The translations under genes were made by a program, and so were the position numbers. DNA of 64,000 nucleotides, from NCBI RefSeq assembly GCF_020551945.1, contig NZ_JAJBZH010000004.1, forward strand, positions 186,001-250,000. The letters run 5' to 3'. This DNA comes from Cellulosimicrobium marinum (GTDB lineage: Bacteria > Actinomycetota > Actinomycetes > Actinomycetales > Cellulomonadaceae). This document shows, piece after piece, positions 5,452-57,805 of the stretch (its first letter is position 1; the number at the start of each line of letters is the position of its first letter). Below the pieces are notes generated by a model, which was given only the letters and a program-made list of their open reading frames with translations, was not told the DNA's origin and searched no databases.

Positions 5452-5526
5452 TTCCGGGTACCCGCGCGAGCCGGGACACGGGCGCGGTCGTGACATACGG
5501 CACGGGTCCGGCGCAGGGGTTCGTCC

Positions 5527-5532
5527 TAGCGT
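5527..5532 (+). promoter_or_regulatory. -10 box giving a leaderless GPP34 transcript
   Basis: TAGCGT ends 7 bases before the ATG at 5540, which places the expected transcription start at or next to the start codon. There is no ribosome-binding site in front of this ATG, which agrees with a leaderless mRNA. No CGGGTGAA box lies at the expected distance. Confidence 0.5.
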
Positions 5533-5539
5533 GGACGGC

Positions 5540-6589: not shown

Positions 6590-7195
6590 GTGTCCGAGAT
6601 CAAGCTCGCAGCCGAGGCCCGCACCGAGTTCGGCAAGGGTGCCGCCCGCCGCATCCGCCGCGCCGACAAGATCCCCGCCGTCCTCTACGGGCACGGCAGC
6701 GACCCCGTCCACGTGACGCTCCCGGGCCACGAGACGATGATGGCGCTCAAGCACTCGAACGCGCTGTTCTCCATCCAGCTCGACGGCAAGGGCCAGCTCG
6801 CGATCGCCAAGGACGTCCAGCGCGACCCGGTCCGCGGCATCATCGAGCACGTCGACCTGCTCATCGTGAAGAAGGGCGAGAAGGTCGCCGTCGACGTCCC
6901 CGTGCACGTCGTGGGCGAGTCGGCCCCCGGCACGATCCACCTCGTCGACCTCCAGACCCTCGCCATCGAGGCCGAGGCCACGCACCTGCCGGAGACCGTC
7001 GAGGTCTCCATCGAGGGCCTCGAGGCCGGCTCCTCGGTCACGGCCGGCGAGGTGACGCTGCCGAAGGGCGCGACCCTCACCGCCGACCCGGAGCTCGTCG
7101 TCGTCACCGTCTCGGTGCCGCAGGCGGAGGAGCTGCCCGAGGACGAGGCCGCCGAGGAGGCCGAGGAAGCCCCGGCCGAGGCCGCCGCGGAGTGA
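6590..7195 (+). CDS. rplY: 50S ribosomal protein L25/general stress protein Ctc
   Basis: A 201-residue L25 of the long (CTC/TL5) type: N-terminal 5S rRNA-binding domain (AEARTEFGKGAARRIRR, then IPAVLYGHG) to about residue 93, a C-terminal beta domain, and an acidic Glu/Ala tail. The GTG at 6590 is chosen because CAGGAG lies 8-9 bases upstream and the L25 fold begins at once (VSEIKLAAEART); a much longer open frame upstream is leader. Followed by two strong hairpins and then pth, the standard actinobacterial order. Confidence 0.95.
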   Translation: MSEIKLAAEARTEFGKGAARRIRRADKIPAVLYGHGSDPVHVTLPGHETMMALKHSNALFSIQLDGKGQLAIAKDVQRDPVRGIIEHVDLLIVKKGEKVAVDVPVHVVGESAPGTIHLVDLQTLAIEAEATHLPETVEVSIEGLEAGSSVTAGEVTLPKGATLTADPELVVVTVSVPQAEELPEDEAAEEAEEAPAEAAAE

Positions 7196-7200
7196 TCCTC

Positions 7201-7265
7201 CGCGTCGCGGCGACCGGCCGCGACGCGACCTGCCGGACGCCCGGTACCGTGACGGTGCCGGGCGT
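7201..7265 (+). terminator. Tandem hairpins after rplY
   Basis: Two consecutive stem-loops follow the rplY stop: a perfect 10-bp stem at 7201-7227 (CGCGTCGCGG with its complement, 7-base loop) and a 13-bp stem with one G-T pair at 7237-7265 (ACGCCCGGTACCG, loop TGA). No T-run follows, as is common in high-GC actinobacteria. They probably end or attenuate rplY transcription before pth. Confidence 0.6.
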
Positions 7266-7300
7266 TCGCGCGCCCGAGACCGTGCGAAGGACGAGGTGAC

Positions 7301-41510: not shown

Positions 41511-42659
41511 ATGGTCTCGGTCGCGCTCGTCACGAGCTCGTTCCTGCCTCGGGCGGGCGGGGTGGAGGAGCACGTCCTGCACGTCGCCCGGGCGCTGCAC
41601 GCCGCGGGTCACCGCGTCGCGGTGTGGGCCGTCGACCAGGGCGACGAGGACGTCCCGGCCGCGGTGGACGACGTCGTCCCGGTCCGCTACCTGCCCGCCC
41701 CGCTGCCCGCACGGACGGGGTCGTCCCTGGCGTCGTTCGCGCGGACGGCGCCCCGGGCGTGGCGCGCGTGGCGTGCCGCGTGGCGTGCCGACCGTCCGGA
41801 CGTGCTCCACGTGCACTGCTACGGGCCGCAGGGTCCGTGGGCGCACGCGCTCTCCCGCCGCACCCGCACCCCGCTCGTGGTCACGGGGCACGGCGAGACG
41901 TTCATGGACGCGCACGACGTGTTCGGCACGTCCGCCCTGCTGCGCACGGCCCTCACGCGCTCGCTCGCGCACGCCCACGCCGTGACGGCGTGCTCCGGCT
42001 ACGCGCTCGCGGACCTCGAACGACGCTTCGGTCTGCCGGCCGGGACCGGGACGGTCGTCCACAACGGGATCGACCTCGACGAGCCGGGCGGGCCGCGCCC
42101 GCCGTGGCTGCCGGACCGGTACGTCCTGGCCGTCGGGCGGGTCGTGCGGACCAAGGGGTTCGACCTGCTCGTGCGGGCCTTCGCCCGCGCGGACCTGCCC
42201 GCGGACGTCCGGCTCGTCGTCGGCGGGGACGGGCCGGAGCTCGCCGGGCTCCGCGACCTCGCCGCGCGGGAGGGCGTCGAGGACCGCGTGGTCCTCCCGG
42301 GCCGTCTCGCGCGCCCGCAGGTGGTGACGGCGATGGCGTCCTCGCTGGCCCTCGTCGTGCCGAGCCGGGTCGAGGCGTTCGGGATCGTCGTCCTTGAGGG
42401 GTGGCGCGCGGGCGTGCCCGTCGTCGTCACGGAGCGCGGCGGGCCGCCGGAGTTCGTCGACGACGGCCGGACCGGTCTCCTGGTGGACCCGGAGGACGTC
42501 GACGCGCTCGCCCGCGCGGTCGGGAGCGCCGTCACGGACCGCGACGTCGCGGGTCGGCTCGCCGTCGAGGGGCGGGCCGAGGTCGAGCGCTACGGGTGGG
42601 GCGCCGTCGCCGAGCGGTACGCCGGTCTCTACCCGCCCGGGCGGTCCCCGTCGAGGTAG
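41511..42659 (+). CDS. GT4-family glycosyltransferase
   Basis: A 382-residue GT-B enzyme: SSFLPRAGGVEEHVLHVARAL, GHGETFMDAHDVF, AVGRVVRTKGFDLLVRAFARADLP, and E-x7-E-type VEAFGIVVLEGWRAG. It is clearly similar over most of its length to the lower-GC enzyme at 57840-58964 (shared VRYLP, LEGWRAG, TKGFDLLV segments). ATG 41511 with CGGAGGAGG upstream. Its end overlaps the convergent ABC exporter gene by 31 bases. Confidence 0.89.
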   Translation: MVSVALVTSSFLPRAGGVEEHVLHVARALHAAGHRVAVWAVDQGDEDVPAAVDDVVPVRYLPAPLPARTGSSLASFARTAPRAWRAWRAAWRADRPDVLHVHCYGPQGPWAHALSRRTRTPLVVTGHGETFMDAHDVFGTSALLRTALTRSLAHAHAVTACSGYALADLERRFGLPAGTGTVVHNGIDLDEPGGPRPPWLPDRYVLAVGRVVRTKGFDLLVRAFARADLPADVRLVVGGDGPELAGLRDLAAREGVEDRVVLPGRLARPQVVTAMASSLALVVPSRVEAFGIVVLEGWRAGVPVVVTERGGPPEFVDDGRTGLLVDPEDVDALARAVGSAVTDRDVAGRLAVEGRAEVERYGWGAVAERYAGLYPPGRSPSR

Positions 42660-44497
42660 GCGCTCGCCTGGAGCGTGAACAGGTCCGCGTAGAGCCCGCC
42701 GGCCGCCATGAGCTCGTCGTGCGTGCCGTGCTCGGCGACCGCCCCGGCCTCGAGCACGTAGATGTGGTCGGCCGAGCGCACGGTGGAGAAGCGGTGCGAG
42801 ATGAACACGGCCGACCGCCCGGCGAGCACCTCGCGCAGCGACTCGAAGATCTCGTGCTCGGCCCGGGGGTCGAGCGACGCGGTCGGCTCGTCGAGGATGA
42901 TCAGCGGGGCGTCGCGGTAGAAGGCGCGGGCGATCGCGACGCGCTGCCACTGGCCGCCCGACAGGTCCCGCCCGTCGCGGAACATCCGCGAGAGCATGGT
43001 GTCGTACCCGTGGGGGAGCGCGGTGAGGAACCCGTCCGCGCCCGCGCGCGTGGCTGCGGCGCGGAGGCGGTCCTCGTCGCCCGCCGCGGACACGTCGCCC
43101 ACCTCGACGTTGTCCCGTGCCGAGAAGGCGTACCGGACGAAGTCCTGGAAGATGGGAGCGACCCGTTCCCGCAGCGTCGCACGGTCGATCTCGCGCGAGT
43201 CCGTCCCGTCCCAGCGGACCGCGCCCGTGTCGGAGTCGTAGAGCCCGGCGAGGATCTTCGCGAGCGTCGTCTTCCCGGAGCCGTTCTCGCCGACGAGGGC
43301 GACCACCTCGCCGCGCCGGACCGTGACGTCGACGCCGCGCAGGGCCGGGACGTCGCTCCCGGGGTACGTGAAGCCGACGTCCTGCGCCGTGATCGTGTCG
43401 AACGCCCGGGGTGCGGGCCGGCCCGACTCGAGCGAGTCCGCCGAGGGGCCGAGGGCCATGAACGCGTCCACGTCGTCGAGGAAGAGACCGGCCTCGAAGA
43501 TCGCCTGGACGGACCCGAGCAGCGTCTGCACCTGGCCCTGGAGCATGCGGATCGCCACGATCGCCGCACCCGCCTGGGCGACGCTCATGGTGCCCCGGGA
43601 GATCAACCAGACGACGAGGAGGAGCGTGACGGCGATGACGACCGCCGACGCGAGGTTGCCGACGAGGCTGAGCGCCGTCCGGCGGCGCAGGTGCACCGCG
43701 AGGTCGCTCTGGTACCGGGCGTAGAGCCGGTCGAACCGGTCGCGCAGCGCCCGTCCCAGACCGAACGCCCGGATCTCCTTCGCCTCGGAGCGGCCCGTGA
43801 GGGTGTAGGACAGGTAGGCGCGCTCACGCCCCGGGTAGGTCTGCCGCACGGCGAAGTCGAACTCCATCCGGCTCTCTCGCCGGTTGGTGAGGAGCAGCGG
43901 GACCCCGCCCAGGACGAGCAGCCCGAGCAGCGCCGGATGGATCGCGACGAGCGTCAGGCCGACGCTCACCGTGACCGCGGCGCTCCCGAAGGCGCCGAGG
44001 AGGGCGTGGGTCACCTGGAGCGGGCGGCTCGCGGCGTTGGCGGTGACGCGCTGCAGGGAGTCGTAGAAGGCGGGGGACTCGAACTGGCGCAGGCTGACCC
44101 GTGTCGCCACGGACAGGACCTGCTGCCAGGTGCGCCGCGCGACGGACTCCGCGAGGTAGCGCTGGAGGGTGCCCTGCACGGCGCCCACGAGCGCCGCGCC
44201 CCCCATGAGCGCGGCCAGGGCGACGACGGGACCCACGAGGGCGCTCATCCCCCCGGTCCCCGAGAGGTCGACGACGGCCTCGAGGAACCGCTCGACGACG
44301 AGCACCTGCCCCGCGAGCAGGAGCGCCCCGACGACCTGGAGGCCGGCGAGCGCGAGGAGCAGGGTCCGCCCCGCGCCCCACACGAGGGACGTGCTGCGCG
44401 CCACGAGGCGGGCGACGCGGCGCAGGGAGCGCCGCTGGTTGCGCTCCTGCACGCGCAGGTCCAACGGGTCGACGAACGAGTCGCCCTCGCCGCCCAT
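42629..44497 (-). CDS. ABC exporter (fused membrane and ATPase domains)
   Basis: A 622-residue half-transporter of MsbA type. About six membrane helices lie in residues 35-320. The ATPase part has Walker A GENGSGKTT, signature [14 protein letters not shown], Walker B LIILDEPTASLD and the H-loop ISHRFSTV. Substrate unknown: it could move a lipid-linked sugar, or serve as the exporter that the lasso cluster otherwise lacks, because lasso D proteins are of this type and size and because its promoter carries the same box as the lasso operon. ATG 44497 with GAGGAGGAC upstream. Confidence 0.9.
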   Translation of the reverse strand: MGGEGDSFVDPLDLRVQERNQRRSLRRVARLVARSTSLVWGAGRTLLLALAGLQVVGALLLAGQVLVVERFLEAVVDLSGTGGMSALVGPVVALAALMGGAALVGAVQGTLQRYLAESVARRTWQQVLSVATRVSLRQFESPAFYDSLQRVTANAASRPLQVTHALLGAFGSAAVTVSVGLTLVAIHPALLGLLVLGGVPLLLTNRRESRMEFDFAVRQTYPGRERAYLSYTLTGRSEAKEIRAFGLGRALRDRFDRLYARYQSDLAVHLRRRTALSLVGNLASAVVIAVTLLLVVWLISRGTMSVAQAGAAIVAIRMLQGQVQTLLGSVQAIFEAGLFLDDVDAFMALGPSADSLESGRPAPRAFDTITAQDVGFTYPGSDVPALRGVDVTVRRGEVVALVGENGSGKTTLAKILAGLYDSDTGAVRWDGTDSREIDRATLRERVAPIFQDFVRYAFSARDNVEVGDVSAAGDEDRLRAAATRAGADGFLTALPHGYDTMLSRMFRDGRDLSGGQWQRVAIARAFYRDAPLIILDEPTASLDPRAEHEIFESLREVLAGRSAVFISHRFSTVRSADHIYVLEAGAVAEHGTHDELMAAGGLYADLFTLQASAYLDGDRPGG

Positions 44498-44540
44498 GGC
44501 AGTCCTCCTCGTCTCGCACGGTCCGGCGGACCGCCTCGTC

Positions 44541-44586
44541 AGTGTCTCAGCGGACGGGGGCACGGTGGGACGCCCGGCCGGGTGAA
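44541..44586 (-). promoter_or_regulatory. Promoter with CGGGTGAA box for the ABC exporter
   Basis: Minus-strand TTCACCC starts at 44586 (CCGGGTGAAACGG on plus), 40 bases before a weak -10 GACACT (44546 to 44541). The start codon lies about 45 bases further. Confidence 0.5.
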
Positions 44587-44590
44587 ACGG

Positions 44591-45190
44591 TCAGCGGTCG
44601 GTCGGGACGTCGAGCACGGCCACCACGAGCCCGACGACCGCGCCGACCAGCAGCACCGACGCGAGCGTGTCGCTCGGGCGGTGCGCGTGGCCCACCACGG
44701 ACGCGACGCACGCCACGACGACCACGCCGACCGCGACGGCGGCGACGGTCCGGCGCGAGGCGCGGGGCGTCAGGAGGACCATCGCGGCCGCGAGGCCGAC
44801 CGTCGCGCTGACGTGCCCGGAGGGCATGGTGTTGTACGCGTAGCCGAGGTCGCCGAGGTCCGGCCGCACCAGCACCTGGTCGCGCAGCCATCCGGAGACC
44901 GCCAGGGGGAGGACCGCGACGAGGACGGCGGCGACGAGGTCGCGGACCCGGTGCTGCCGCAGCGCGAGCACCCCGAGCACGAGGCAGGTGGCGGCGAGGA
45001 CCACGGGCAGGACGGCCCTGGAGACCGAGGCGACGCCCGAGACCAGCTCGCCGCCTCCCTGGAGCTGGGCGAACCCGCGGACGTCGGCGACCTGCCCGGT
45101 GACCGTGCGGACCGCGACGACGTACACGAGGACGAACGCGACGAGGGCGGTCGCGGCACCGGCGGCTCCCCGCCGTCGTCGCTCGTCCAC
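44591..45190 (-). CDS. PAP2-family phosphatase
   Basis: A 199-residue membrane protein with about six helices. The three phosphatase motifs are visible: RDQVLVRP, PSGHVSA and GHAHRPSD (with histidine and aspartate in place). Such enzymes recycle undecaprenyl pyrophosphate or remove phosphate from prenyl or phosphatidyl lipids, which suits a glycan locus that consumes lipid carrier. GTG 45190 has GGAGGTGG upstream. A second, diverged PAP2 gene lies at 54525-55253. Confidence 0.85.
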   Translation of the reverse strand: MDERRRRGAAGAATALVAFVLVYVVAVRTVTGQVADVRGFAQLQGGGELVSGVASVSRAVLPVVLAATCLVLGVLALRQHRVRDLVAAVLVAVLPLAVSGWLRDQVLVRPDLGDLGYAYNTMPSGHVSATVGLAAAMVLLTPRASRRTVAAVAVGVVVVACVASVVGHAHRPSDTLASVLLVGAVVGLVVAVLDVPTDR

Positions 45191-45280
45191 CGCCCACCTC
45201 CGCGTGCCCGGGACCCGTCCGACGGATCGTGCGCCGAGCCTACGGCGACCGCCGTGGCCCGGGGAAGGTCGGCGTCGGCC

Positions 45281-45286
45281 TAGACT
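45281..45286 (+). promoter_or_regulatory. -10 box of the Dpm1-like gene
   Basis: TAGACT predicts a start near 45293, 35 bases before the ATG, which has its own GGAGGTGG. No CGGGTGAA box is present in this 137-base divergent region. Confidence 0.45.
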
Positions 45287-45327
45287 CGGCCCGCGCACGA
45301 GGACGGACCGTGGACGGAGGTGGCGCC

Positions 45328-46250: not shown

Positions 46251-49200
46251 ATGAACCTCACCGGCATCCTGCCCGCGCTGCTCGCCGACCCCGCCGCGGC
46301 GGCGGCGGTCGAGCACGTGCGCGCGCGCGGCGCGGCGGACGTCGTCGGCCCGGCGGGGGTGCGGCCTCCGCTGCTCGCGGCGATGGCGGGCGCTCGGGCG
46401 ACCGGTCCGGTGCCCGACGGCGCGGGGCCGGCCTCCGCGGGGACGGCGGGGTCGCGCCCGCTCGTCGTGGTGACGGCGACGGGTCGCGACGCGGACGAGC
46501 TCGCGGCGAGCGTCCGCGCGTACCTGCCGGACGAGCTGGGCGACCTCGTCGCCGTGCTGCCGAGCTGGGAGACGTTGCCGCACGAGCGGCTGAGCCCGCG
46601 TGCGGACACGGTCGCGAAGCGGATCGCGGTGTTCCGGCGCCTGGCGCACCCGGACGCGGAGGTCGGGCCGTCGGGCCCCGTGCGGGTGCTCGTCATGCCG
46701 GTGCGCGCGCTGCTGCAGCCCGTGGTGGACGGGCTGGGCGAGCTCGTCCCGGTCGAGCTGCACCACGGTGACGTCGCCGACCTCACGGACGTCGCGGAGC
46801 GGCTCGTCGCGGCGGCGTACACGCGCGTCGACATGGTCGAGCGGCGCGGGGAGTTCGCGGTGCGCGGCGGCATCCTCGACGTCTTCCCGCCCACCGAGGA
46901 CCACCCGCTGCGCGTGGAGTTCTGGGGCGACGAGGTGTCGGAGATCCGCTGGTTCGCGGTCGCCGACCAGCGCAGCCTGGAGCTCGCCGAGCACGGCCTG
47001 TGGGCGCCGCCGTGCCGCGAGATCCTCCTCACGGAGTCGGTGCGCGCGCGGGCTGCGGCGCTCGTGGAGCAGCTCCCGGGCGCCGCCGAGATGCTGGACA
47101 GGCTGTCGGCGGGCGTCGCCGTCGAGGGCATGGAGTCGCTGGCACCCGTGCTCGTCGACCGCATGGTGCCCGTGCTCGAGCTCGTGCCGGACGACGCGCT
47201 GCTCGTCGTCGACGACGCCGAGCGGGTGCGGCGCCGTGCCCACGACCTCGTCGCGACGACCGAGGAGTTCCTCGCGGCCGCGTGGGTGGGCGCGGCGGCA
47301 GGGGGGAACCAGCCGATCACCGTGCCGATCGACCTGTCCGCGGCGTCGTTCGCGACGTTCGCCGACGTGCGCGCCGTCGCGCAGCGCCGCGGCCTCGGGT
47401 GGTGGACGCTGTCGTCGTTCGCGCTCGACAACCCGGACCTCGACGCGGCGCCCGACGACGCGCTCCCGCCCGGGGGCGCGTCAGGCCCGGGGGGCGACCG
47501 GGCGGCGTCGGGCACGACCCGCGCCCACGTGGGCGAGAGCGCGGACGGCGTGCCGACGTTCACGATCGGCGCGCGCGACGTCGAGTCGTACCGCGGGGAC
47601 GTCTCGCGTGCGCTCGACGACGTGCGCGGCCTGCAGCACGCGGGCTGGCGCCTGGTGCTCACGACCGAGGGGCACGGGCCGGCCAAGCGCATGGTCGAGC
47701 AGCTCGGCGCGGTCGACACCCCGGCGCGCCTCGTCGCACGGCTCGACGACGAGCCCGAGGGCGGCGTCGTGTCCGTCACCCCGGCGATGGTCGGCAAGGG
47801 CTTCGTCGCGCCGGACCTGCGGCTCGCCGTCTTCTCCGAGGCGGACCTCACGGGGCGCGCCGGGTCGAGCACGCGCGACATGCGGAAGATGCCGTCGCGG
47901 CGGCGCAACGTCGTCGACCCGCTGCAGCTCAAGGCGGGCGACTTCGTCGTGCACGAGCAGCACGGCGTGGGCCGGTTCGTCGAGCTCGTGCAGCGCACGC
48001 TCGGCACGGGCGGCAACGCCGCGACGCGCGAGTACCTCGTCATCGAGTACGCGTCGTCCAAGCGGGGGCAGCCGGGGGACCGGCTCTTCGTCCCGATGGA
48101 CCAGCTCGACCAGGTGACGAAGTACACCGGTGGCGAGTCGCCGAGCCTCAACAAGATGGGCGGCGCGGACTGGGCGAAGACGAAGTCGCGCGCCCGCAAG
48201 CACGTCAAGGAGATCGCGAGCGAGCTCATCCGGCTCTACTCGGCGCGCATGGCGACGCAGGGCCACGCGTTCGGCCCCGACACGCCGTGGCAGCGCGAGC
48301 TCGAGGACGCGTTCGCGTACGTCGAGACGCCCGACCAGCTCGCGACCATCGACGAGGTCAAGGCCGACATGGAGAAGACGGTCCCCATGGACCGGCTCGT
48401 GTGCGGCGACGTCGGCTACGGCAAGACGGAAATCGCGATCCGGGCCGCGTTCAAGGCGGTCCAGGACGGCAAGCAGGTCGCGGTGCTCGTGCCGACGACG
48501 CTGCTCGGCCAGCAGCACTTCGAGACGTTCTCGGAGCGGTACGCGGGGTTCCCCGTCACCGTGAGAGCCCTGTCGCGCTTCCAGACCGCGAAGGAGTCCG
48601 AGGAGGTGATCGAGGGGCTGCGCACCGGCGCGGTCGACGTCGTCATCGGCACGCACCGGCTCATCACCGGGAGCATCCGGTTCAAGGACCTCGGCCTCGT
48701 CATCATCGACGAGGAGCAGCGGTTCGGCGTCGAGCACAAGGAGACGCTCAAGCAGCTGCGCACCAACGTCGACGTGCTCGCCATGTCCGCGACACCGATC
48801 CCACGCACGCTCGAGATGGCGGTCACCGGCATCCGCGAGATGTCGACGCTCGCGACCCCGCCCGAGGAGCGCCACCCCGTCCTCACCTACGTCGGCGCGT
48901 ACGAGGAGAAGCAGATCGCCGCCGCGCTGCGCCGCGAGCTGCTGCGCGAGGGCCAGGTGTTCTACGTGCACAACAAGGTCGAGACCATCGACCGCACCGC
49001 CGCGAAGCTCCGCGAGCTGGTGCCCGAGGCCCGCGTCGGCGTGGCGCACGGCAAGATGAACGAGCACCAGCTCGACCAGGTCATCCGGGCGTTCTGGGAG
49101 AAGGAGCTCGACGTCCTCGTCTGCACGACGATCATCGAGACCGGCCTCGACATCTCCAACGCCAACACCCTCATCCTCGAGCGCGCCGACGTGCTCGGGC

Positions 49201-50003
49201 TCTCCCAGCTCCACCAGCTGCGCGGGCGCGTGGGCCGCGGGCGCGAGCGCGCCTACGCGTACTTCCTCTACCCGCCGGAGCGTCCCCTCACGGAGACCGC
49301 GCACGACCGCCTCGCGACCATCGCGGCGCACACCGACCTGGGCGCCGGCATGCAGGTCGCGATGAAGGACCTCGAGATCCGTGGCGCCGGGAACCTCCTC
49401 GGCGGCGAGCAGTCCGGCCACATCGCGGGCGTCGGGTTCGACCTGTACGTCCGCATGGTCGGCGAGGCGGTCGCGAACTTCCGCGGCGACGGGCCCGAGG
49501 AGCAGCCGGAGGTCTCGATCGAGCTGCCCGTGGACGCCCACCTGCCCGAGTCGTACATCGCGACCGAGCGCCTGCGGCTCGAGGCGTACCGCAAGATCGC
49601 CGCGGCGGCCGACGCCCCCGCGCTGGCCGAGGTGCGCGCCGAGCTCGTCGACCGGTACGGCGCGCTCCCCGAGGTCGCGTCCGCCCTGTTCGACGTCGCC
49701 GACTTCCGCAACCACGCGCGCCGCGCCGGGCTGACCGACGTCACCGCGCAGGGCAAGTTCGTCCGGTTCGCGCCCGTCGACCTGCCCGAGTCGGCGCAGC
49801 TGCGCCTCAAGCGCCTCTACCCGGGCACGATGCTCAAGCCCGCGATCCGCGCGTTCCTCGTCCCCTTCCCCACGACCGCCCGCATCGGCGGGCGTCCCCT
49901 GCGCGGCGCCGAGGTGCTCGACTGGGCACGCCAGCTCATCGACGCCGTGGTCCTCGGCGAGGTGAGCGCCGCCGCGACCGTGGGCACGGCCGGCGCCCGC
50001 TGA
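46251..50003 (+). CDS. mfd: Transcription-repair coupling factor
   Basis: A 1250-residue protein of full Mfd length. It has the N-terminal UvrB-homology region, the CarD-like RNA-polymerase interaction domain after residue 560 (LKAGDFVVHEQHGVGRFVELV), and the RecG-like translocase with Walker A GDVGYGKTEIA, the DEEQRFG box, and TRG-region GRVGRGRERAYAY. It removes stalled RNA polymerase and recruits UvrA. A short Gly/Ser-rich insertion near residues 405-425 is unremarkable. Classic position before mazG/eno, here separated from them by about 9 kb. Confidence 0.97.
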   Translation: MNLTGILPALLADPAAAAAVEHVRARGAADVVGPAGVRPPLLAAMAGARATGPVPDGAGPASAGTAGSRPLVVVTATGRDADELAASVRAYLPDELGDLVAVLPSWETLPHERLSPRADTVAKRIAVFRRLAHPDAEVGPSGPVRVLVMPVRALLQPVVDGLGELVPVELHHGDVADLTDVAERLVAAAYTRVDMVERRGEFAVRGGILDVFPPTEDHPLRVEFWGDEVSEIRWFAVADQRSLELAEHGLWAPPCREILLTESVRARAAALVEQLPGAAEMLDRLSAGVAVEGMESLAPVLVDRMVPVLELVPDDALLVVDDAERVRRRAHDLVATTEEFLAAAWVGAAAGGNQPITVPIDLSAASFATFADVRAVAQRRGLGWWTLSSFALDNPDLDAAPDDALPPGGASGPGGDRAASGTTRAHVGESADGVPTFTIGARDVESYRGDVSRALDDVRGLQHAGWRLVLTTEGHGPAKRMVEQLGAVDTPARLVARLDDEPEGGVVSVTPAMVGKGFVAPDLRLAVFSEADLTGRAGSSTRDMRKMPSRRRNVVDPLQLKAGDFVVHEQHGVGRFVELVQRTLGTGGNAATREYLVIEYASSKRGQPGDRLFVPMDQLDQVTKYTGGESPSLNKMGGADWAKTKSRARKHVKEIASELIRLYSARMATQGHAFGPDTPWQRELEDAFAYVETPDQLATIDEVKADMEKTVPMDRLVCGDVGYGKTEIAIRAAFKAVQDGKQVAVLVPTTLLGQQHFETFSERYAGFPVTVRALSRFQTAKESEEVIEGLRTGAVDVVIGTHRLITGSIRFKDLGLVIIDEEQRFGVEHKETLKQLRTNVDVLAMSATPIPRTLEMAVTGIREMSTLATPPEERHPVLTYVGAYEEKQIAAALRRELLREGQVFYVHNKVETIDRTAAKLRELVPEARVGVAHGKMNEHQLDQVIRAFWEKELDVLVCTTIIETGLDISNANTLILERADVLGLSQLHQLRGRVGRGRERAYAYFLYPPERPLTETAHDRLATIAAHTDLGAGMQVAMKDLEIRGAGNLLGGEQSGHIAGVGFDLYVRMVGEAVANFRGDGPEEQPEVSIELPVDAHLPESYIATERLRLEAYRKIAAAADAPALAEVRAELVDRYGALPEVASALFDVADFRNHARRAGLTDVTAQGKFVRFAPVDLPESAQLRLKRLYPGTMLKPAIRAFLVPFPTTARIGGRPLRGAEVLDWARQLIDAVVLGEVSAAATVGTAGAR

Positions 50004-50075
50004 GGCGTCCGCAGCGGCGGGAATGGTGCCTGGACGGCCGTCCAGGACGGTGTGGGCGAAATGTGTTCCGGCTGT

Positions 50076-50126
50076 GGGTGAAGTTTGTTGCCAGAGCCGT
50101 GGACGGCCTGCCGGCGGCCCTACTGT
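50076..50126 (+). promoter_or_regulatory. Promoter with CGGGTGAA-type box for the lasso operon
   Basis: GTGGGTGAAGTT has GGGTGAA from 50076, exactly 45 bases before a good -10 box TACTGT (50121-50126). A related GGGCGAA lies 22 bases further upstream at 50054-50060. The predicted leader is about 88 bases and ends in a strong GGAGGTGAAG ribosome-binding site. Confidence 0.6.
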
Positions 50127-50219
50127 GGGGCCTGTCGTCAGAGTTCTGAGGACGTCGGTGAGGCCGCGCGCGCCGGTTCGGTCGCACGGCACGCGAGACC
50201 GCCGAGGAGGTGAAGAACG

Positions 50220-50369
50220 ATGAGGTACGAAGCACCCTCGCTGACCGAGGTCGGCTCGGTCCAGGGCCTGACGCTCGGCAAGCTCAAGCCGGGTCCGGAC
50301 CGTGACAACGCCGCGTGGTACGACATCTGGGGCGACCCGGAGACCCCGCAGCCCCAGGGCTCGCGATGA
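50220..50369 (+). CDS. Lasso peptide precursor
   Basis: A 49-residue peptide too short for most gene finders. The leader carries YEAP at residues 3-6 followed by L8, the YxxPxL motif bound by the lasso B1/RRE protein, and ends with Thr at position -2 (LTL before residue 20). The predicted 30-residue core starts GKLKPGPDRD: Gly1 and Asp8 would form an 8-residue macrolactam ring. The tail includes WYDIW as bulky plug candidates and ends QGSR, with a penultimate serine. ATG 50220 is preceded by GGAGGTGAAG. The neighbouring cyclase, B2, kinase and B1 genes strongly support the call; the exact cut site is inferred. Confidence 0.85.
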   Translation: MRYEAPSLTEVGSVQGLTLGKLKPGPDRDNAAWYDIWGDPETPQPQGSR

Positions 50370-50376
50370 GCTCGAC

Positions 50377-50408
50377 CCGGGGCGGGTGGTCGTGACCACC
50401 CGCCCCGG
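50377..50408 (+). terminator. Perfect hairpin between lasso precursor and cyclase genes
   Basis: A 15-base arm CCGGGGCGGGTGGTC is followed by its exact complement with only GT between them, 8 bases after the precursor stop. It can form a 14-bp stem with a 4-base loop. Such hairpins between a precursor and its enzymes often attenuate transcription or protect the precursor mRNA, giving excess precursor. It also covers the alternative GTG starts of the next gene at 50386 and 50392. Confidence 0.65.
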
Positions 50409-50448
50409 ACACGAGCAGGCACTCCGAACGACGAGATCGAGGACGCGT

Positions 50449-51663
50449 GTGGCGGCACCGACGTCGAGCGCGAGCTTCGCGCGACTGACCGAGCAGGAGA
50501 CGATGCTCTCCGCGGTCTTCGTCGAGCGCGCAGCGCCCTCCGTCCCCGCCGACGGCCGCGGCGCCCGCGCGGTGCTCGAGGCGATCCTGCTCGAGGCGCT
50601 GCAGACGCGACCCTGCTACGTGCTCTTCTCCGGTGGGCGGGACTCGTCGGCGCTCCTGGCCGTCGCCGTCCACGTCGCCCGCCGCACCGGGCTCCCCCTG
50701 CCCGTCCCCGTGACGGCACACCATCCCGCGCACTCGCGGTCGCACGAGCAGCAGTGGCAGGACCTCGTGCTCGGCCACCTGGACGTCTCCGAGCGTGTGG
50801 TCGTCGAGCTGGACGGCGAGCAGCGTCTCCTGGGCGACGTCGCGACCGCGGCGATCCGTCGGCACGGGGTCGTCTGGCCCGAGGCGGTCCAGGGTCACGG
50901 CGCGATCTACCGGCACCTCGACGCCGCCGGCGCCGTCGTCCACGGAGAGGGCGGCGACAACGTGATCTCCGGCGGGCGCGCTGCCTGGGTACGGGCCCTG
51001 GGGACGCGACGACCGGACCGTGCGCTCCTGCGCGGCGCGATCCGCGCCGCCGTCCCGGTCACCGCCCGACGAGCCCGCCGCGGGGCCGAGCCCTGGCCGT
51101 GGCTCACGGCTGCCGGAGCGGCGGCACTGGTCGACGCGGAGGTCCGATCGCGCCGCACCCCCTTCCGGTGGGACCGTGCCACGCAGGCGGTCGTGCGGGA
51201 ACCGGCGGCTCGCGTCCTCTTCCCGAACATGGATGCCGGGATCGCCGAGTACGGCCTGCGCCCGTTCACGCCGTTCGCCGACCCTCGGTTCGTCGGCGCC
51301 CTCGCGCGGGAGGGCGGCGTCTGGGGCTTCGGGGGCCGCACGGCCACCTTCGACCACCTCGTGGGGGACCTCCTGCCCGCCGCGGTGATCGGGCGCACCA
51401 CGAAGGCGTCATTCAACGGGACCCGGTGGGGCGAGGGCGAGCGGGAGTTCGCGCGGTCCTGGGACGGGTCCGGGATCTCGTCGGACTGGGTGGACGCCGA
51501 GCGCCTGCGCACGGAGTGGCTCCGCGACGACCCGCACCCGGCCTCGGACTTCCTGCTCCAGGTCGCCTGGAACGCCGCCCGGGGCGGGACCGGGTCCGAT
51601 GCCGAGGGCTCGTCTCACGCCACGGTGCCGCACGGCCTCGTCGCACGGGCGGGGGAGCGATGA
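50449..51663 (+). CDS. Lasso peptide cyclase (asparagine-synthetase-like, no N-terminal amidotransferase domain)
   Basis: A 404-residue member of the asparagine synthetase B fold. The ATP-pyrophosphatase loop FSGGRDSSALL is at residues 60-70 and VHGEGGDNVISGG further on is the second conserved element. It would adenylate the ring Asp of the precursor and close the macrolactam. Lasso C proteins are usually 500-600 residues with a remnant class-II amidotransferase domain at the N-terminus; here the synthetase domain starts almost at once. GTG 50449 is chosen for GAGGAC 6-7 bases upstream; earlier GTGs (50386, 50392) lie in a hairpin and add no recognisable domain. Confidence 0.8.
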   Translation: MAAPTSSASFARLTEQETMLSAVFVERAAPSVPADGRGARAVLEAILLEALQTRPCYVLFSGGRDSSALLAVAVHVARRTGLPLPVPVTAHHPAHSRSHEQQWQDLVLGHLDVSERVVVELDGEQRLLGDVATAAIRRHGVVWPEAVQGHGAIYRHLDAAGAVVHGEGGDNVISGGRAAWVRALGTRRPDRALLRGAIRAAVPVTARRARRGAEPWPWLTAAGAAALVDAEVRSRRTPFRWDRATQAVVREPAARVLFPNMDAGIAEYGLRPFTPFADPRFVGALAREGGVWGFGGRTATFDHLVGDLLPAAVIGRTTKASFNGTRWGEGEREFARSWDGSGISSDWVDAERLRTEWLRDDPHPASDFLLQVAWNAARGGTGSDAEGSSHATVPHGLVARAGER

Positions 51664-52121
51664 GCGTCCTCGCGGCCGTGCGCCACGCGTCGGCCCTCGA
51701 GCTGTGGACGGGGGTGCGGGTCCTCGCCGTCGCCCCCCTCGTCGAGGTGGGCCTGCGCAGGTCCACCCTTCCCCGTGTCGCGCGGCTCCTGGGCGTGCGC
51801 CTGGTGCTCGACGGGACGAGCGGCACGCCCGTCTCCGCGGACCGCCCGGCGCCGCTCGACGCCCGGGAACGCGCGCAGCTGTCGGTCGCGTGGCGCACCC
51901 TCGCCCGACTCCCGTGGAACGGGACGTGCCTGCGCCGGGCGCTCGTCGGGGCGTGGCTGCTCCGGGACCGCGACCACGCCGTGCGGATCGGGGTCAAGCG
52001 CGCCCCCACCGGAATCGCGGCGCACGCCTGGCTGGAGGTCGACGGCGTGTGCCTCGACCCCGACGACGGCGAGCGCTTCCTCCCTCTCGACCGGTCCCCG
52101 ATCGGAGCACGCACCCCATGA
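51660..52121 (+). CDS. Lasso peptide B2 leader peptidase (transglutaminase-like)
   Basis: A 153-residue protein of lasso B2 size. The catalytic cysteine is C90 in NGTCLRRALVGAWLL and the histidine H122 in AAHAWLEVDG, with D128 as the likely third member. The N-terminal 45 residues are hydrophobic-helical. B2 cleaves the leader after it is presented by B1. The ATG overlaps the cyclase stop and the next gene overlaps its stop, each by 4 bases. Confidence 0.88.
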   Translation: MSVLAAVRHASALELWTGVRVLAVAPLVEVGLRRSTLPRVARLLGVRLVLDGTSGTPVSADRPAPLDARERAQLSVAWRTLARLPWNGTCLRRALVGAWLLRDRDHAVRIGVKRAPTGIAAHAWLEVDGVCLDPDDGERFLPLDRSPIGARTP

Positions 52122-53068
52122 CCCTGCACAGCCTGTACGGGCTCGTCGTCGACGTCGACACGGGCCTCCACCTCCCGCCGGCGCGCCTCCACGAGGGCAC
52201 GGTCCCGGACCTGCGGGTCCGGGCGCGCGCGGGTCTCCGGGAGAACGACGCCGTCCCGGAGGGCGACCTGCTCCTCGACTACCGCGAGGAGGACGACCAC
52301 TGGTACTCGGTGGCGCGGCGCGACGACGGTACCGTCCTGTTCCGCGTGTACGGCCTGTGCGACGTGGTCCTCTCCCCGGACCTGCGCGACGCCGAGCTGC
52401 GTCTGCTCGACGGCGTGGACCCCGGCATGGCGTCCGTGATGACCACGGGGGCGCTCTGCTCGCTCGTGCTCTACCTGCGGGGAACGAGCGTGCTGCACGC
52501 CAGCGCGGTCAGCCACGACGGGCGGACGGTGGCGTTCATGGGCCGTTCGGGACAGGGGAAGTCGACGATGGCCGCGCTCCTGTGCGCCGCGGGCGCCGAG
52601 CTGGTCACCGACGACGTCCTGCCCGTCGTGTCGACCGACCCGGTGGAGGTGGCGGTCGGCTCGCCCGAGGTGCGTCTGCGCACCGGGGTGCGCGAGCTCG
52701 CGCAGCAGGCGTCGGCGGGACGCGAGCGGCGCAGCGCCGACGGGCGGGACGTGCTCACGCTGCGGGCCGACGACGCGGGTGACGGCGCGCGCCGCCTCGA
52801 CGCCCTGGTGATCCCCGCGCCGAACCACGACGGCCGGCTCGAGCTCGTGCGCCTCCCGGCGAAGGAGGCGCTGCTCGCCACGATGAGCTTCCCGCGGCTC
52901 ATGGGGTGGCAGGACCCGGGGGTCGTCGCGCGGCAGTTCACGACCGCGGCCGCGATCGCGGAGCAGGTCCCCGTCGTCGTGGCGCACGTCCCGTGGGGGC
53001 CACCGTTCGGTGACGACGTCGTCGAGGCCGTCTGGGACGTCGTCCGGACGACGCGGGTGGCCGGCTGA
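52118..53068 (+). CDS. HPr-kinase-like lasso peptide tailoring kinase
   Basis: A 316-residue protein with the HprK fold core: LHASAV at residues 126-131, P-loop GRSGQGKST at 142-150 and VTDDVLPV as the Walker-B-like segment. Homologues in lasso clusters (paeninodin type) phosphorylate a C-terminal serine of the precursor; this precursor has a serine next to its last residue. No HPr or PTS genes are near, so a role in carbon catabolite control is unlikely. Coupled to B2 by a 4-base overlap. Confidence 0.83.
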   Translation: MTLHSLYGLVVDVDTGLHLPPARLHEGTVPDLRVRARAGLRENDAVPEGDLLLDYREEDDHWYSVARRDDGTVLFRVYGLCDVVLSPDLRDAELRLLDGVDPGMASVMTTGALCSLVLYLRGTSVLHASAVSHDGRTVAFMGRSGQGKSTMAALLCAAGAELVTDDVLPVVSTDPVEVAVGSPEVRLRTGVRELAQQASAGRERRSADGRDVLTLRADDAGDGARRLDALVIPAPNHDGRLELVRLPAKEALLATMSFPRLMGWQDPGVVARQFTTAAAIAEQVPVVVAHVPWGPPFGDDVVEAVWDVVRTTRVAG

Positions 53069-53069
53069 C

Positions 53070-54266
53070 GTGGTGGTCGGGACGACGGGTGCCCGCCCGG
53101 CGGGGCGTGGGACGGGCCGGCCGGTCGAGGCGGACGCGTTGGCGCGGCTGCTCGTCGACGCCGTGCGAGGCGTGACGGACGGGGCGTACGAGGCCCTCCC
53201 GGACGACCCCCGCACCGTGGTCGAGGCGGCGGGGCTGCACCGGGTCACGCCGGCGGTCGCGAGGGTCGCGCGCGCCCGGGACGACCTGCCGTCCGCCTGG
53301 CGCCCGGCGCTCGCCGGTGCGCGGACCGCGCAGATGCTGCGGCACCTGCGCACGACGGCGGACCTGCGGGTGATCGGGGGTGCGCTGGACGCGGCGGGCA
53401 TCGCGTGGGCGGCGTTCAAGGGGCCGGTCCTCACGCACGCCGTGTGGCCGGCGGCCGACATGCGGGAGTACCTCGACCTGGACGTCCTGGTCGACCCGCG
53501 TCGTGCCGAGGACGCGCTGGAGGCGGTGCTCGCGACCGGCGCGGCGATGGTGGACCGCAACTGGCCGCTGCTGCGCGACTCCCGCCGCGCGGAGCTCGCG
53601 CTCACGGGCGTCCACGGCACGGCGGTCGACCTGCACTGGCACGTCCTCGTCCCGCCCGCACAACGCCGACGGTTCACGGTGCCGGTGCTCGACCTGCTGG
53701 AGCGGCGTCGGTGGATCGACCTCGGGCAGGGTGTCGACGTCCCCGTGCTGGACGCGACCGACCAGCTCCACCACCTCGCGCTGCACACCCTCGTCGGGGG
53801 TGCGAACCGGCTGATGTGGCTGGGCGACCTCCACTACGCGGCCCGGGACCCCGAGCTCGACGCCGGTCGGCTGCGGCACGACGCGGAGCGGGCGAGGTCG
53901 GCGCTCGGCGTCGGGATGGTCCTCGCGCGCACGGCCGCGGTCCTCGGCGTGCCGGGCACGCTCCGGGAGGCGTTCCGCGGCGCCGTCCCGCGGCCGTGGG
54001 AGGCCGTCGTGCAGGCGCGCGACGGGCGGACCCCGTTCCCCGGGCTCCCCGGCGACCGGCACCTGGGCGGTGCGCTCTACGCGGGGGCGCGGCGGACCGT
54101 CGCCGGGAGCTCGGTGGGCCTCCTGCGGGACGCCCTCGACGCCCGGCGGTACGCCCGCCGCGGGCACGCCGGCATCTACGAGGTGGAACCGCTCGGGCAC
54201 GACGTGCCCGACGCCCGCGCCCGTGCGGAGTACTTCGCGGCCGCGTCCGCCGCGCCCGACGCGTGA
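53070..54266 (+). CDS. Nucleotidyltransferase-family protein (NTP_transf_5-like) of the lasso cluster
   Basis: A 398-residue protein. The nucleotidyltransferase core shows FKGPVLTH (residues 116-123) and the metal-binding YLDLDVLVDP with D136 and D138; the C-terminal 200 residues are helical. Genes of this family sit beside lasso kinases in other bacteria, suggesting that the phosphorylated peptide is further nucleotidylated or that the protein modifies a partner; this is not proven. GTG 53070 (or 53073) follows the kinase stop after one base. Ends 10 bases before the convergent B1 gene. Confidence 0.8.
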   Translation: MVVGTTGARPAGRGTGRPVEADALARLLVDAVRGVTDGAYEALPDDPRTVVEAAGLHRVTPAVARVARARDDLPSAWRPALAGARTAQMLRHLRTTADLRVIGGALDAAGIAWAAFKGPVLTHAVWPAADMREYLDLDVLVDPRRAEDALEAVLATGAAMVDRNWPLLRDSRRAELALTGVHGTAVDLHWHVLVPPAQRRRFTVPVLDLLERRRWIDLGQGVDVPVLDATDQLHHLALHTLVGGANRLMWLGDLHYAARDPELDAGRLRHDAERARSALGVGMVLARTAAVLGVPGTLREAFRGAVPRPWEAVVQARDGRTPFPGLPGDRHLGGALYAGARRTVAGSSVGLLRDALDARRYARRGHAGIYEVEPLGHDVPDARARAEYFAAASAAPDA

Positions 54267-54276
54267 CGGCGGGTCG

Positions 54277-54528
54277 TCAGGCGAGGAGCTGCTTCTCCCG
54301 GAGGGCGTCGACGAACGCCTGCGCGTCGCGCACGGCCGTCTCGCGGTCGATCTCGTAGACGTCCACCAGGTGGTCCGCGAGGTCGTCGAGCGTGCGGTCC
54401 TCGAGGAGCTGCTTCGCGAGCTCCGCCCCGGCGGCGTTCGTCGTGAGGTACACGGACCGGTCCAGGTCGAGGATGACGAGCTCGCCGTCGAGCTCCTGCC
54501 AGCTGATGCCCTCGGTCTTGATCCTCAT
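54277..54528 (-). CDS. PqqD-like RRE protein, lasso B1
   Basis: An 83-residue PqqD-fold protein: GISWQELDGELVILDLDRSVYLTTNAAG-type beta-strand region in the first 35 residues (only partly quoted: VILDLDRSVYLT), then a three-helix bundle. It should bind the YxxP leader of the precursor and present it to B2 and the cyclase. Unusually it is transcribed towards the rest of the cluster, from its own promoter, rather than standing between cyclase and B2. The ATG overlaps the stop of the upstream PAP2 gene by 4 bases. Confidence 0.87.
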   Translation of the reverse strand: MRIKTEGISWQELDGELVILDLDRSVYLTTNAAGAELAKQLLEDRTLDDLADHLVDVYEIDRETAVRDAQAFVDALREKQLLA

Positions 54529-55253
54529 GCGGTGTCCTCGTCCCGTGTCCCGTCCGGCGCGCTCGCCGGACCCCGTCGGATGCTAGCAACGCCGTCGGGA
54601 CGGCGGGCAGGAACGGCCCCGGGTGAATCCCCCTGCGGGGCAGGGCGCGCGGGCCGGGCCACGACGTCCAGCGCGAGCGCGACCGTGGCGGCGAGCAGGA
54701 GCGCCGCGACCGTGTCGCTCGGCCGGTGCGCCCCGGACGCGACGTTCGCCCAGGCTGCGAGGACCGGCAGGACGGCCAGAACGGTCGCGGACCAGGGGGC
54801 CAGGCGTCGGCCGAGCATCGTCGCCGCTGCTGCGCACAGGGCCGCGGCGGTCGCGACGTGCGCGCTCGGGAGCGTGTTCGTCGGGGACCCGCCCGTCTCG
54901 AGCACGGGACGCGTCAGCAGGTCGTCGCGCAGCACCACGGCGAGGACGTAGGTGATCACGGGCCCGAGGAGCGCGATCAGCGACCGCGGTCGGCGGTCGA
55001 CCAGGCACGTCACCGTGGCGGCCGCCGCGACGAGGAACGCCGGGAGCAGGGCGTTCGCGCGCAGCTGATCCGGCCAGGGGAGCCCCGCGGGCAGGGCCCC
55101 GCGGGCGAGCAGCGCGTCGTCGGCCGTCTGCCCCGGCCGGGTCAGGACCGCGAGGCCGTACGCGAGAGCCAGGAGCCCGACGAGCACGGCGTCCGTGAGC
55201 AGGACCGTGCGCGGGCGGTGCTCGACCACCCCGCGCAGCCACCGCCGGACCAT
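54525..55253 (-). CDS. PAP2-family phosphatase-like membrane protein
   Basis: A 242-residue protein with about six membrane helices and a long charged C-terminal tail. The motifs are partly altered: [16 protein letters not shown] instead of PSGH, and SGAHRPSD. The glycine-to-alanine change may alter activity. It resembles the PAP2 protein at 44591-45190 in plan. ATG 55253 has GGAGGGAG upstream. It could process a lipid phosphate needed by the glycan locus, or merely be a neighbour; its 3' end contains the promoter of the lasso B1 gene. Confidence 0.8.
54580..54627 (-). promoter_or_regulatory. Intragenic promoter with CGGGTGAA box for lasso B1
   Basis: Minus-strand TTCACCC starts at 54627, 42 bases before TAGCAT (54585 to 54580), inside the 3' coding end of the PAP2 gene. 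It would start a transcript near 54573, 45 bases before the B1 ATG, letting B1 be co-regulated with the rest of the lasso operon although it is on the other strand. Confidence 0.55.
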
Positions 55254-55290
55254 CGGCGCTCCCTCCGTCCCGGTTCCGGCCACAGCATGC

Positions 55291-55324
55291 CGGGGCCCGG
55301 CGCCGCTGTCGACACCGGGCCCCG
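55291..55324 (-). terminator. Terminator after the MacB-type ABC operon
   Basis: CGGGGCCCGG (55291-55300) pairs perfectly with CCGGGCCCCG (55315-55324) around a 14-base loop, in the 123-base gap between the ABC ATPase stop and the PAP2 start. Confidence 0.5.
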
Positions 55325-55376
55325 TCCGCTCGCGCCGCGCGTGCACCGGGACCCCGCCCGGCGTCGGCGCCCGCGG

Positions 55377-56051
55377 TCAGCGCCCGAGATCCTTCACCCG
55401 CCCGTCGGCGATGCGTAGCCGCCGCTGCGCGCGCTTCGCCACGACCGAGTCGTGCGTGACCATGACGACGGTCAGCCCCTGCTCCTTCCACAGCCCCTCG
55501 AGCAGGTCGACGATCTCGTCGCGCGTCGCCTCGTCGAGGTTGCCCGTCGGCTCGTCCGCGAGGAGCACGCGCGGCTCCTTGACGAGCGCCCGGGCGATCG
55601 CGACGCGCTGCTGCTGGCCGCCCGACAGCTCGGCCGGGAGGTGTCCCGCCCGCTCCGCGAGCCCGACGGCGGCGAGCGCGTCGGTCGCGCGGGTGCGCCG
55701 CTCGGCCGCCGAGACCTTCAGCGGCACGAGCGCCGTCTCGACGTTCTCGTGCGCCGTGAGCGTGGGGACGAGGTTGAACCCCTGGAACACGAACCCGACG
55801 GTCCGCGCCCGCACGGCGGTGAGCGCGGCGTCGCCCATCGTGGCGAGGTCGGTCCCGTCGAGCGCGATGCGGCCCGACGTCGGGCGGTCCAGCCCGCCCA
55901 GCATCTGCAGCAGCGTGGACTTCCCCCCGCCCGTGGGTCCCTGGACGGCGACCAGCTCGCCGTCGTCGATGTGCAGGTCGACGTCGCGCAGCGCGTGCAC
56001 CGTGCGCTTGCCCTGGGCGTACGTCCTGGTCAGTCCGGTGATCTCGTACAT
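55377..56051 (-). CDS. ABC transporter ATPase, MacB/LolD type
   Basis: A 224-residue ATPase: Walker [28 protein letters not shown], signature [15 protein letters not shown] and Walker [13 protein letters not shown], then the H-loop VTHD. This is the usual partner of MacB/FtsX-type permeases, encoded 55 bases upstream in the same direction. Such pairs act by mechanotransmission: export of peptides, lipoprotein release, or antibiotic resistance. Lying next to a lasso cluster it may give immunity or export, but its promoter lacks the lasso box. Confidence 0.92.
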
Positions 56052-56106
56052 GGCAGTGCCTCTCGGGAGGGCCCCGGTCGGGGCCGGTGTCTCGGGTCGG
56101 GGAGGG

Positions 56107-57633
56107 TCAGGCGACGGAGCGCAGCGCCTCGGCGGGGCGCAGGCGCGCCGCCCGGGCACCGCCCACGACGCCCGCGAGGAGCCCGCCGAGCACGGCGAGC
56201 CCCACCGCCGCGGCGACGACCCAGGGCAGCACCGGCGCGGACAGCACCACGTCGACGGCGCTCGCGGCCTGGGAGAACGGGTCGCCGCCGCCGAAGGGCC
56301 CGCCGCCCTGGCCGGCGAGCTGACCGGCGGCCTGACCGGCCGTCTCGCCGGACGTGCCGGCGCCGCCCGGGCCCCCGCCGGGACCGCCGAAGGAGAAGCC
56401 GCCGGACGCGCCGGACAGGGTGATGCCGGAGAGGTTGACCGCGACGACCGCGACCACGCCGAGCAGGATGCCGAGAACCCCGCCGAGCAGGCCCTGCACG
56501 ACGGACTCGCCCGCGACCTGGCCGACGACGCGGCCGCGCGGCCACCCGATGGCCTTGAGGGTGCCGAGCTCGCGCGTGCGGCGGTTGACGCCGGAGACGG
56601 TGAAGAGGATCGCGAGGCCGAACGCGGCGGCGAGGACCACGGCGGACAGCCACGTCCCGAGGCTCGACACGAGGCTCGACGCCGTGGACAGCGACCCCGT
56701 CACCGACGAGGCGAGGTCGGACTGCGTGGACACCGTCGCCTCGGGCAGGGCGTCTGCGATCGCGTCCGCGACGGCGTCGATCTCGGACGCGGACGCCGCC
56801 TGCACGTACAGGTCGCTGACCTGGCCGTCGAGGTCGGCGAGGGACTGCGCGAGCGCGAGCGGCACGTACACGTCGCTCGCGGTGGCGACGCCGTCGCCCG
56901 TCGTCGACGTCACGGTGCCGACGACCTCCACGTCCGTGCCGCCGACGCTGACGGTGTCGCCGACGGCGAGCCCGGTGCTCTCGGCGTACGTGGCGTCGAC
57001 GACGGCGACCTCCGCGTCGGCGTCGTCGGCGTCGAGCGTGCGGCCGTCGGCGAGCGTGACCGTGGTGAGCGGGCCGACCGCGTCGGCCGTCGGGTCGACG
57101 CCCGTCACGCTGAACGAGTCGATCTCGAAGGCGCTGCCCCCGGCGCCGTCGGCCCCGCCGACCGGCGGCTGCTCGCCCTGGCCGGGGCCACCGCCCTCAC
57201 CCCTCTGCGACGGGTCGGGCATCTCGCCGTCGAACGAGGTGTTGCTCAGCTCGAGCGTCGCCGCGACGCCGCTGACCTGGTCGAGCCCGGCGACGGTGTC
57301 GAGCGTCGACGCGTCGAGCGTCCCGCTGCCGGGCGTGACGGAGAGCCGGTCCTGGGAGAACGTGCGCGAGCCCTCGTCGTCCGTGGCGCCGTCCTCGGCG
57401 CCGACGTCGAACCGGCCGGGCCCGCCGGCGCCGCGCTCGCCCGGCTGGGACACGGTGATGTCGGTCCCGACGCCGTAGACGGACTCGAGGACCGTGGCCT
57501 GGGCCGCCTGCACACCGGCGGACACGGAGCTGACGACGACGACGAGCGCGACGGCGAGCGCGAGCCCGACGGCGACGACCACCGTCTGCTTGCGCCGGTT
57601 GCCGAGCTCGCGGCGGAGATACGTGAGGAACAT
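56107..57633 (-). CDS. MacB/FtsX-type ABC transporter permease
   Basis: A 508-residue permease: one N-terminal membrane helix (about residues 17-40), an extracytoplasmic MacB-like domain of about 290 residues rich in Asp, Gly and Ser, then three C-terminal helices with the conserved [18 protein letters not shown] cytosolic segment, and a Gly-rich loop near 420-450. The ATG at 57633 matches the family start (FLTYLRREL); the longer open frame is promoter. Confidence 0.9.
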
Positions 57634-57675
57634 GGGAAGACCCTTCGCGGGGACGACGGACGCGTGTCGTCCCGG

Positions 57676-57732
57676 AACGTAGGGACGTCCCCTGGGCCCA
57701 CCTGAGCACGTCGCTGTGCGGACGCTGTGCGG
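57676..57732 (-). promoter_or_regulatory. Promoter of the ABC operon with 11-bp-phased direct repeat
   Basis: CGCTGTGCGG occurs twice, at 57712-57721 and 57723-57732 (on the minus strand CCGCACAGCG twice), so repeat units are 11 bases apart. A TACGTT -10 box lies at 57681 to 57676 on the minus strand, 31 bases downstream. One-turn direct repeats upstream of a promoter are the usual target of OmpR-type response regulators, which often control MacB-like transporters; no regulator gene is in the window. Confidence 0.5.
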
Positions 57733-57805
57733 CAAGCGCCGTGGCCGTACAACTCCGCACCCCGAGATCCGGGGGAATCGATGGATGCGTCGCGTCGGAG
57801 GAGCC

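Follow-up and report, generated by a model that had tools for sequence, protein, structure and literature searches.

Two published rules bear on lasso peptides whose gene clusters carry a kinase: such kinases act on a C-terminal serine, and natural rings comprise 7, 8 or 9 residues. The ring sizes of structurally characterised lasso peptides are given as 7, 8 and 9 in a 2026 review (PMC13352647), and mining studies filter by rules of this kind, one of them by an Asp at position 8 or 9 (PMC7533575). For pseudomycoidin, a kinase is reported to put a phosphate on a serine and a nucleotidyltransferase-like protein to add one or two hexoses (PMC9266682, PMC8498205), with the caveat that the sugar was possibly supplied by the host (PMC9266682). 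The kinase BsfK phosphorylates Ser3, away from the C-terminus (PMC10368454). The present analysis concerns a lasso peptide gene cluster at positions 50004-54528 of a 64,000-nucleotide stretch of Cellulosimicrobium marinum (contig NZ_JAJBZH010000004.1; hereafter the window), whose precursor ends in Gly-Ser-Arg (GSR). With a probability of roughly two in three, this cluster directs the synthesis of a modified lasso peptide belonging to a subtype not yet described, in which the protein B1 would bind the YxxPxL leader, the kinase K would phosphorylate the precursor, most likely at Ser29 of the C-terminal GSR, and the protein N would extend that phosphate with a nucleotide or, in the manner reported for pseudomycoidin's PsmN, with a hexose. 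The peptidase B2 would then cleave after Leu(-1), the cyclase C would link the Gly1 amine to Asp10, with a 20-residue tail threaded through a 10-residue ring, and the exporter D would release the product. The subtype is defined by GSR and Asp10 within the kinase-plus-nucleotidyltransferase lasso clusters. The more specific proposal of a natural lasso family with a 10-residue Gly1-Asp10 ring, a dedicated kinase clade phosphorylating the penultimate Ser of GSR, and an N protein glycosylating or nucleotidylating that phosphate is tentative, and may somewhat more easily fail than hold.

Gene content of the cluster

The genes A, C, B2, K and N on the forward strand and B1 convergent to them are all present with intact catalytic motifs, so that the lasso cluster proposed in a sequence-only reading of this DNA stands, as does its inclusion of a kinase and a nucleotidyltransferase. 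Gene A (50220-50369) encodes a 49-residue precursor with leader MRYEAPSLTEVGSVQGLTL and core GKLKPGPDRDNAAWYDIWGDPETPQPQGSR; the leader has the YxxPxL motif and the expected Thr at -2, and matches NCBIfam NF033521 (lasso_leader_L3) at 24.3 bits (cut-off 19). C (50449-51663) is an ATP-dependent, asparagine-synthase-like lasso cyclase (PF00733) with the motifs SGGRDSS and GEGGD, and B2 (51660-52121) is a transglutaminase-like leader peptidase that matches NF033537 and PF13471 above their cut-offs and retains the catalytic Cys and His. B1 (54277-54528, reverse strand) is a PqqD-like leader-recognition (RRE) protein (PF05402, 7e-15) that is also found beside the clusters of relatives. The C/B2 and B2/K junctions are ATGA overlaps and N starts one base past the K stop, and C-B2-K-N thus reads as one transcription unit. 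Furthermore, the same enzyme set recurs next to homologous precursors in dozens of genomes, which is more than chance; the sequence-only reading, which had named a lack of conservation of the precursor frame beside the enzymes in relatives as refuting, is thus upheld on this point.

The C-terminal Gly-Ser-Arg and its kinase

A kinase-alignment scan of 84,980 genomes yielded 79 loci, and further loci were obtained from genome searches; a single-sequence scan of genome contigs with N as the query found no relative. Counting each distinct lasso-leader precursor encoded no more than 9 kb from a homologous kinase gave 81. Ser is the C-terminal residue in 67, nine end in GSR and five have other endings; the loci of these five are distant or uncertain, and at least one of the five seems to be spurious. 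The penultimate Ser of the window precursor, which had been flagged as anomalous for a paeninodin-type kinase, is indeed so. The ending QGSR is no oddity of a single sequence, however: eight further distinct precursors of the clade likewise end in GSR in place of the C-terminal Ser of the paeninodin type, and GSR marks a clade whose kinases and cyclases are lineages of their own. The GSR precursors span Cellulosimicrobium (the window), Georgenia, Oceanitalea, Luteimicrobium and Microbacterium. All nine share the ending although their synonymous codons for it differ (GGCTCGCGA, GGCTCCCGC, GGCTCTCGC and GGCAGCCGC), on which ground a frameshift or read-through yielding a Ser ending in place of GSR was dismissed; in the window the three codons lie at 50358-50366 (forward strand). 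Across the nine aligned, otherwise divergent cores, GSR is the sole run of three fixed residues, and its Ser is the only core Ser or Thr common to all nine. Fixation in divergent cores suggests that the penultimate Ser29 is likely the kinase site and that the Arg is a hallmark of the subtype. In Oceanitalea stevensii (locus L042), two different GSR precursors (5515-5679 and 7121-7273) flank N; at L043:7200-7355, the counterpart of the second apparently lacks the GSR ending (it reads ..GDPQHVPPAPRRGPR) and is possibly a decayed copy.

K (52118-53068) is HprK-like by a weak sequence match, with Pfam below its cut-off (1.7e-4) and an HprK-type P-loop. The catalytic residues His127, Lys148, Asp165 and Asp166 of paeninodin-type kinases are conserved, and the structural model (predicted local distance difference test, pLDDT, 92.7) matches PEPCK and HprK. 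The eight kinases that accompany GSR precursors group together in a single clade (support 100/99), in which V77, M108 and M262 are fixed; these residues occur in 0/71, 1/71 and 0/71 of the other kinases, respectively. Arg169, present in 53 of the 71 others, is replaced in all eight (Pro in seven, Val in one), and position 169 lies three residues past the catalytic Asp165-Asp166. From this pattern, Arg169 may contribute to holding the terminal carboxylate where the kinase serves a Ser-ending precursor. The precedent of BsfK on Ser3 makes a penultimate Ser plausible as a phosphorylation site.

It is unlikely that the Arg is instead removed by a carboxypeptidase, leaving Ser as the true C-terminus and K as an ordinary paeninodin-type kinase. 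All other kinase-linked precursors here, bar a few distant ones, end in Ser, as this explanation would have it; however, no carboxypeptidase gene was recognised next to the cluster in the window, the precursor is reported to be phosphorylated prior to maturation (PMC9266682), and the GSR kinases form a separate clade whose active site shows residue changes. The cluster is not filed as paeninodin type, because the C-terminal Ser, one of the defining features of that type, is absent; it very likely works like one.

The phosphate would be the substrate of N (53070-54266), a tailoring protein with a nucleotidyltransferase fold (PF14907, 102.9 bits) in which K117-G118, D136-x-D138 and D187 are invariant. 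The best match of its model (pLDDT 90.9) is MenT1, followed by LnuA and ANT(2'')-Ia, with a weak match to the phospho-ribitol transferase FKRP. The joint presence of K and N is a feature of the pseudomycoidin type.

Ring size and the cyclase

Counted from Thr(-2), the window core has both Asp8 and Asp10, and the sequence-only reading had predicted a Gly1-Asp8 ring. All nine GSR precursors have Asp10 and none has Asp9, whereas Asp9 is present in 57 of the 67 Ser-ending precursors. In the Georgenia and Oceanitalea cores (beginning GKVPTGPQRD, GKLASGPKKD, GRQTPGPKKD, GKLAWGPQKD and GSQFLAAYTD), the first acidic residue is that at position 10. The GSR cyclases are also one clade (support 99/97), and they share their side of the tree with no cyclases other than those of three Ser-ending clusters whose precursors also have Asp10 (support 86/87). 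The predicted acceptor pair is Gly1-Asp10 (codons of core residues 1-10 at 50277-50306, forward strand), which would give a 10-residue ring, one residue more than any characterised natural lasso ring. No native 10-residue ring was found in the open-access literature; Metanodin, whose "unprecedented ring structure" made it a candidate precedent, was set aside, as its novelty is an Asn at position 1 and not ring size. A lasso cyclase tolerated macrocycles of 7-10 residues in engineered fusilassin (PMC13352647), which makes a 10-residue ring feasible.

A Gly1-Asp8 ring in this species, with Asp10 conserved for another reason such as cyclase recognition, is distinctly unlikely. It would suit the Asp8 of the window and Luteimicrobium cores, and 8-residue rings are common among known lasso peptides; however, the other seven GSR precursors carry Q, K, Y or F at position 8 and, apart from Glu9 in Microbacterium, lack acidic residues throughout positions 7-9, and homologous cyclases should share their acceptor position. 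Less probable again is a B2 cut one residue later (Thr at -3), by which the core would start at Lys2 and a Lys2-Asp10 ring would have the usual 9 residues. Such a cut would retain the ring size of the Ser-ending relatives, and leaders with unusual ends are known (Ile at -2; PMC10368454), but Gly1 is invariant in the GSR precursors while position 2 varies (K, R, S, G or D). In addition, the Georgenia-like cores keep the Gly6-to-Thr spacing of most Ser-ending relatives, which places the extra residue after Gly6, inside the ring, and indicates that the cleavage site has probably not moved. The Gly1-Asp10 ring is thus preferred over both alternatives.

The sequence-only reading also did not recognise the core from known lasso peptides. 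The core is nevertheless no orphan: it has close homologues in Georgenia/Oceanitalea, and a Georgenia homologue shares about two thirds of its residues.

Exporter, neighbouring genes and described systems

The dedicated exporter D (42629-44563, reverse strand) falls outside the interval covered by the sequence-only reading and is separated from the other cluster genes by a PAP2 gene, a GT2 gene and mfd. This fused ABC gene recurs with clusters at 74 of 104 loci, and the window copy shares 60-66% identity with its counterparts in Georgenia, Oceanitalea and Luteimicrobium GSR clusters, most of which have it next to K, and 84% with D of C. arenosum. The two glycosyltransferase genes flanking D in the window recur in C. 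arenosum, where D has both them and K beside it. The window D may therefore descend from a resident cluster of the C. arenosum type, with the A-C-B2-K-N unit coming from a different lineage. MacB/FtsX-type ABC genes (55377-57735) were dropped as exporter candidates, as the MacB pair does not recur with the clusters. Little credence is given to a relic cluster from which the exporter has become separated and which no longer makes a product: D does lie beyond mfd, and a lasso cyclase was found in only 2 of 17 Cellulosimicrobium genomes (that of the window and C. arenosum, the same two that have D), but all frames are open, the catalytic residues are intact and so is D.

Several points weigh against the proposed pathway. 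The GSR kinases form a single clade, and the match between kinase residues and precursor C-terminus thus represents one evolutionary event and not repeated covariation. Asp8 in the window and Luteimicrobium cores, and Glu9 in Microbacterium, would allow a smaller ring for these sequences, and the natural rings characterised so far have 7-9 residues. D is 6 kb from the cluster, the reaction proposed for N is unproven even in pseudomycoidin, and no product of the cluster is known.

Between A and C lies a strong RNA hairpin (50370-50415, forward strand; -41.6 kcal/mol, z -6.2), a 14-bp stem immediately 3' of the A stop codon with equivalents in five GSR relatives, which may serve to raise expression of the precursor over that of the enzymes. 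The lasso genes directly adjoin mfd (46251-50003) in the window, and N adjoins mfd in at least five relatives (loci L024, L025, L026, L029 and L034); lasso genes seem to favour mfd as a neighbour or insertion site. Two PAP2-type phosphatase genes are present in the window, one (54525-55346) sharing four bases with the start of B1 and one adjoining D (44591-45298), and a PAP2 gene also lies beside B1 in C. arenosum. The nearby PAP2 and glycosyltransferase genes were dropped as cluster members, being present in a minority of relatives.

Other loci in the collection differ from these patterns. In Actinotalea soli (G023; L049:6626-10003 and L038) and at L037 (G032), a lasso-type precursor MGYEKPSITKVGSVADLTLHGRGKGKGKG..PKPGHGGGIS is found with B1 and N, and the A. 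soli locus additionally has B2 (catalytic Cys and His intact), K and D. A lasso cyclase was found neither in these loci nor in either genome, and the precursor core has no Asp or Glu; this is possibly a phosphorylated linear ribosomally synthesised and post-translationally modified peptide system that dispenses with ring formation. Ser-ending precursors with two core Cys (e.g. GYPQNCKYGHGADN and LPIQACKYGYGADN) occur at L059:13201-13380 (C. arenosum), L065:16220-16399 and L034:12247-12432 (Isoptericola-related); their first Asp after Thr(-2) is only at position 13, and if the core began at the first Cys, the ring would have 8 residues and the Thr would lie far upstream. In Pseudonocardiaceae (L077, L080, L091, L092, L101 and L110), two cyclases and two unlike Ser-ending precursors surround one kinase, exporter and B1.

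The GSR clade breaks the rule of the C-terminal Ser at the level of sequence, and probably the ring-size rule as well, so filters of the kind cited above can miss the clade or draw the wrong ring. It also provides cyclases (the Asp9 versus the Asp10 clade) for work on the determinants of ring size, and kinases for work on C-terminus recognition; in Georgenia satyanarayanai, a GSR cluster (L044) and a Ser-ending one (L104) share a single contig, a natural paired control.

The clusters of Georgenia/Oceanitalea, Luteimicrobium xylanilyticum and Microbacterium ulmi (L041-L045, L053 and L140), for which no description was found in the literature searched, share with the window GSR, Asp10 and the kinase and cyclase clades; in them, D adjoins K or lies upstream of A rather than beyond mfd, and the cores have 23-35 residues. 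The fusilassin variants were engineered from a native 9-residue ring, whereas a 10-residue ring in the window would be native. The bsf cluster of Bradymonas sediminis (BsfK, BsfN) is similar in combining a kinase with a nucleotidyltransferase and in that BsfK spares the C-terminal residue (PMC10368454); however, BsfK modifies Ser3 in the ring, the leader has Ile at -2 and the kinase is distant. The paeninodin-related kinases PadeK, ThcoK and SyanK are, like K, homologous to HprK, have the His-Lys-Asp-Asp residues and are reported to act on the precursor. They are described from Firmicutes and Proteobacteria and modify a C-terminal Ser termed extremely conserved, whereas the window kinase is actinobacterial and its precursor ends in Ser-Arg. 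Pseudomycoidin of Bacillus pseudomycoides (psmK, psmN) resembles the window in its split B1/B2, cyclase, HprK-like kinase and nucleotidyltransferase-like protein; there the modified Ser is reported as C-terminal, whereas in the window a conserved Arg comes after the Ser and Asp10 is predicted as the acceptor.

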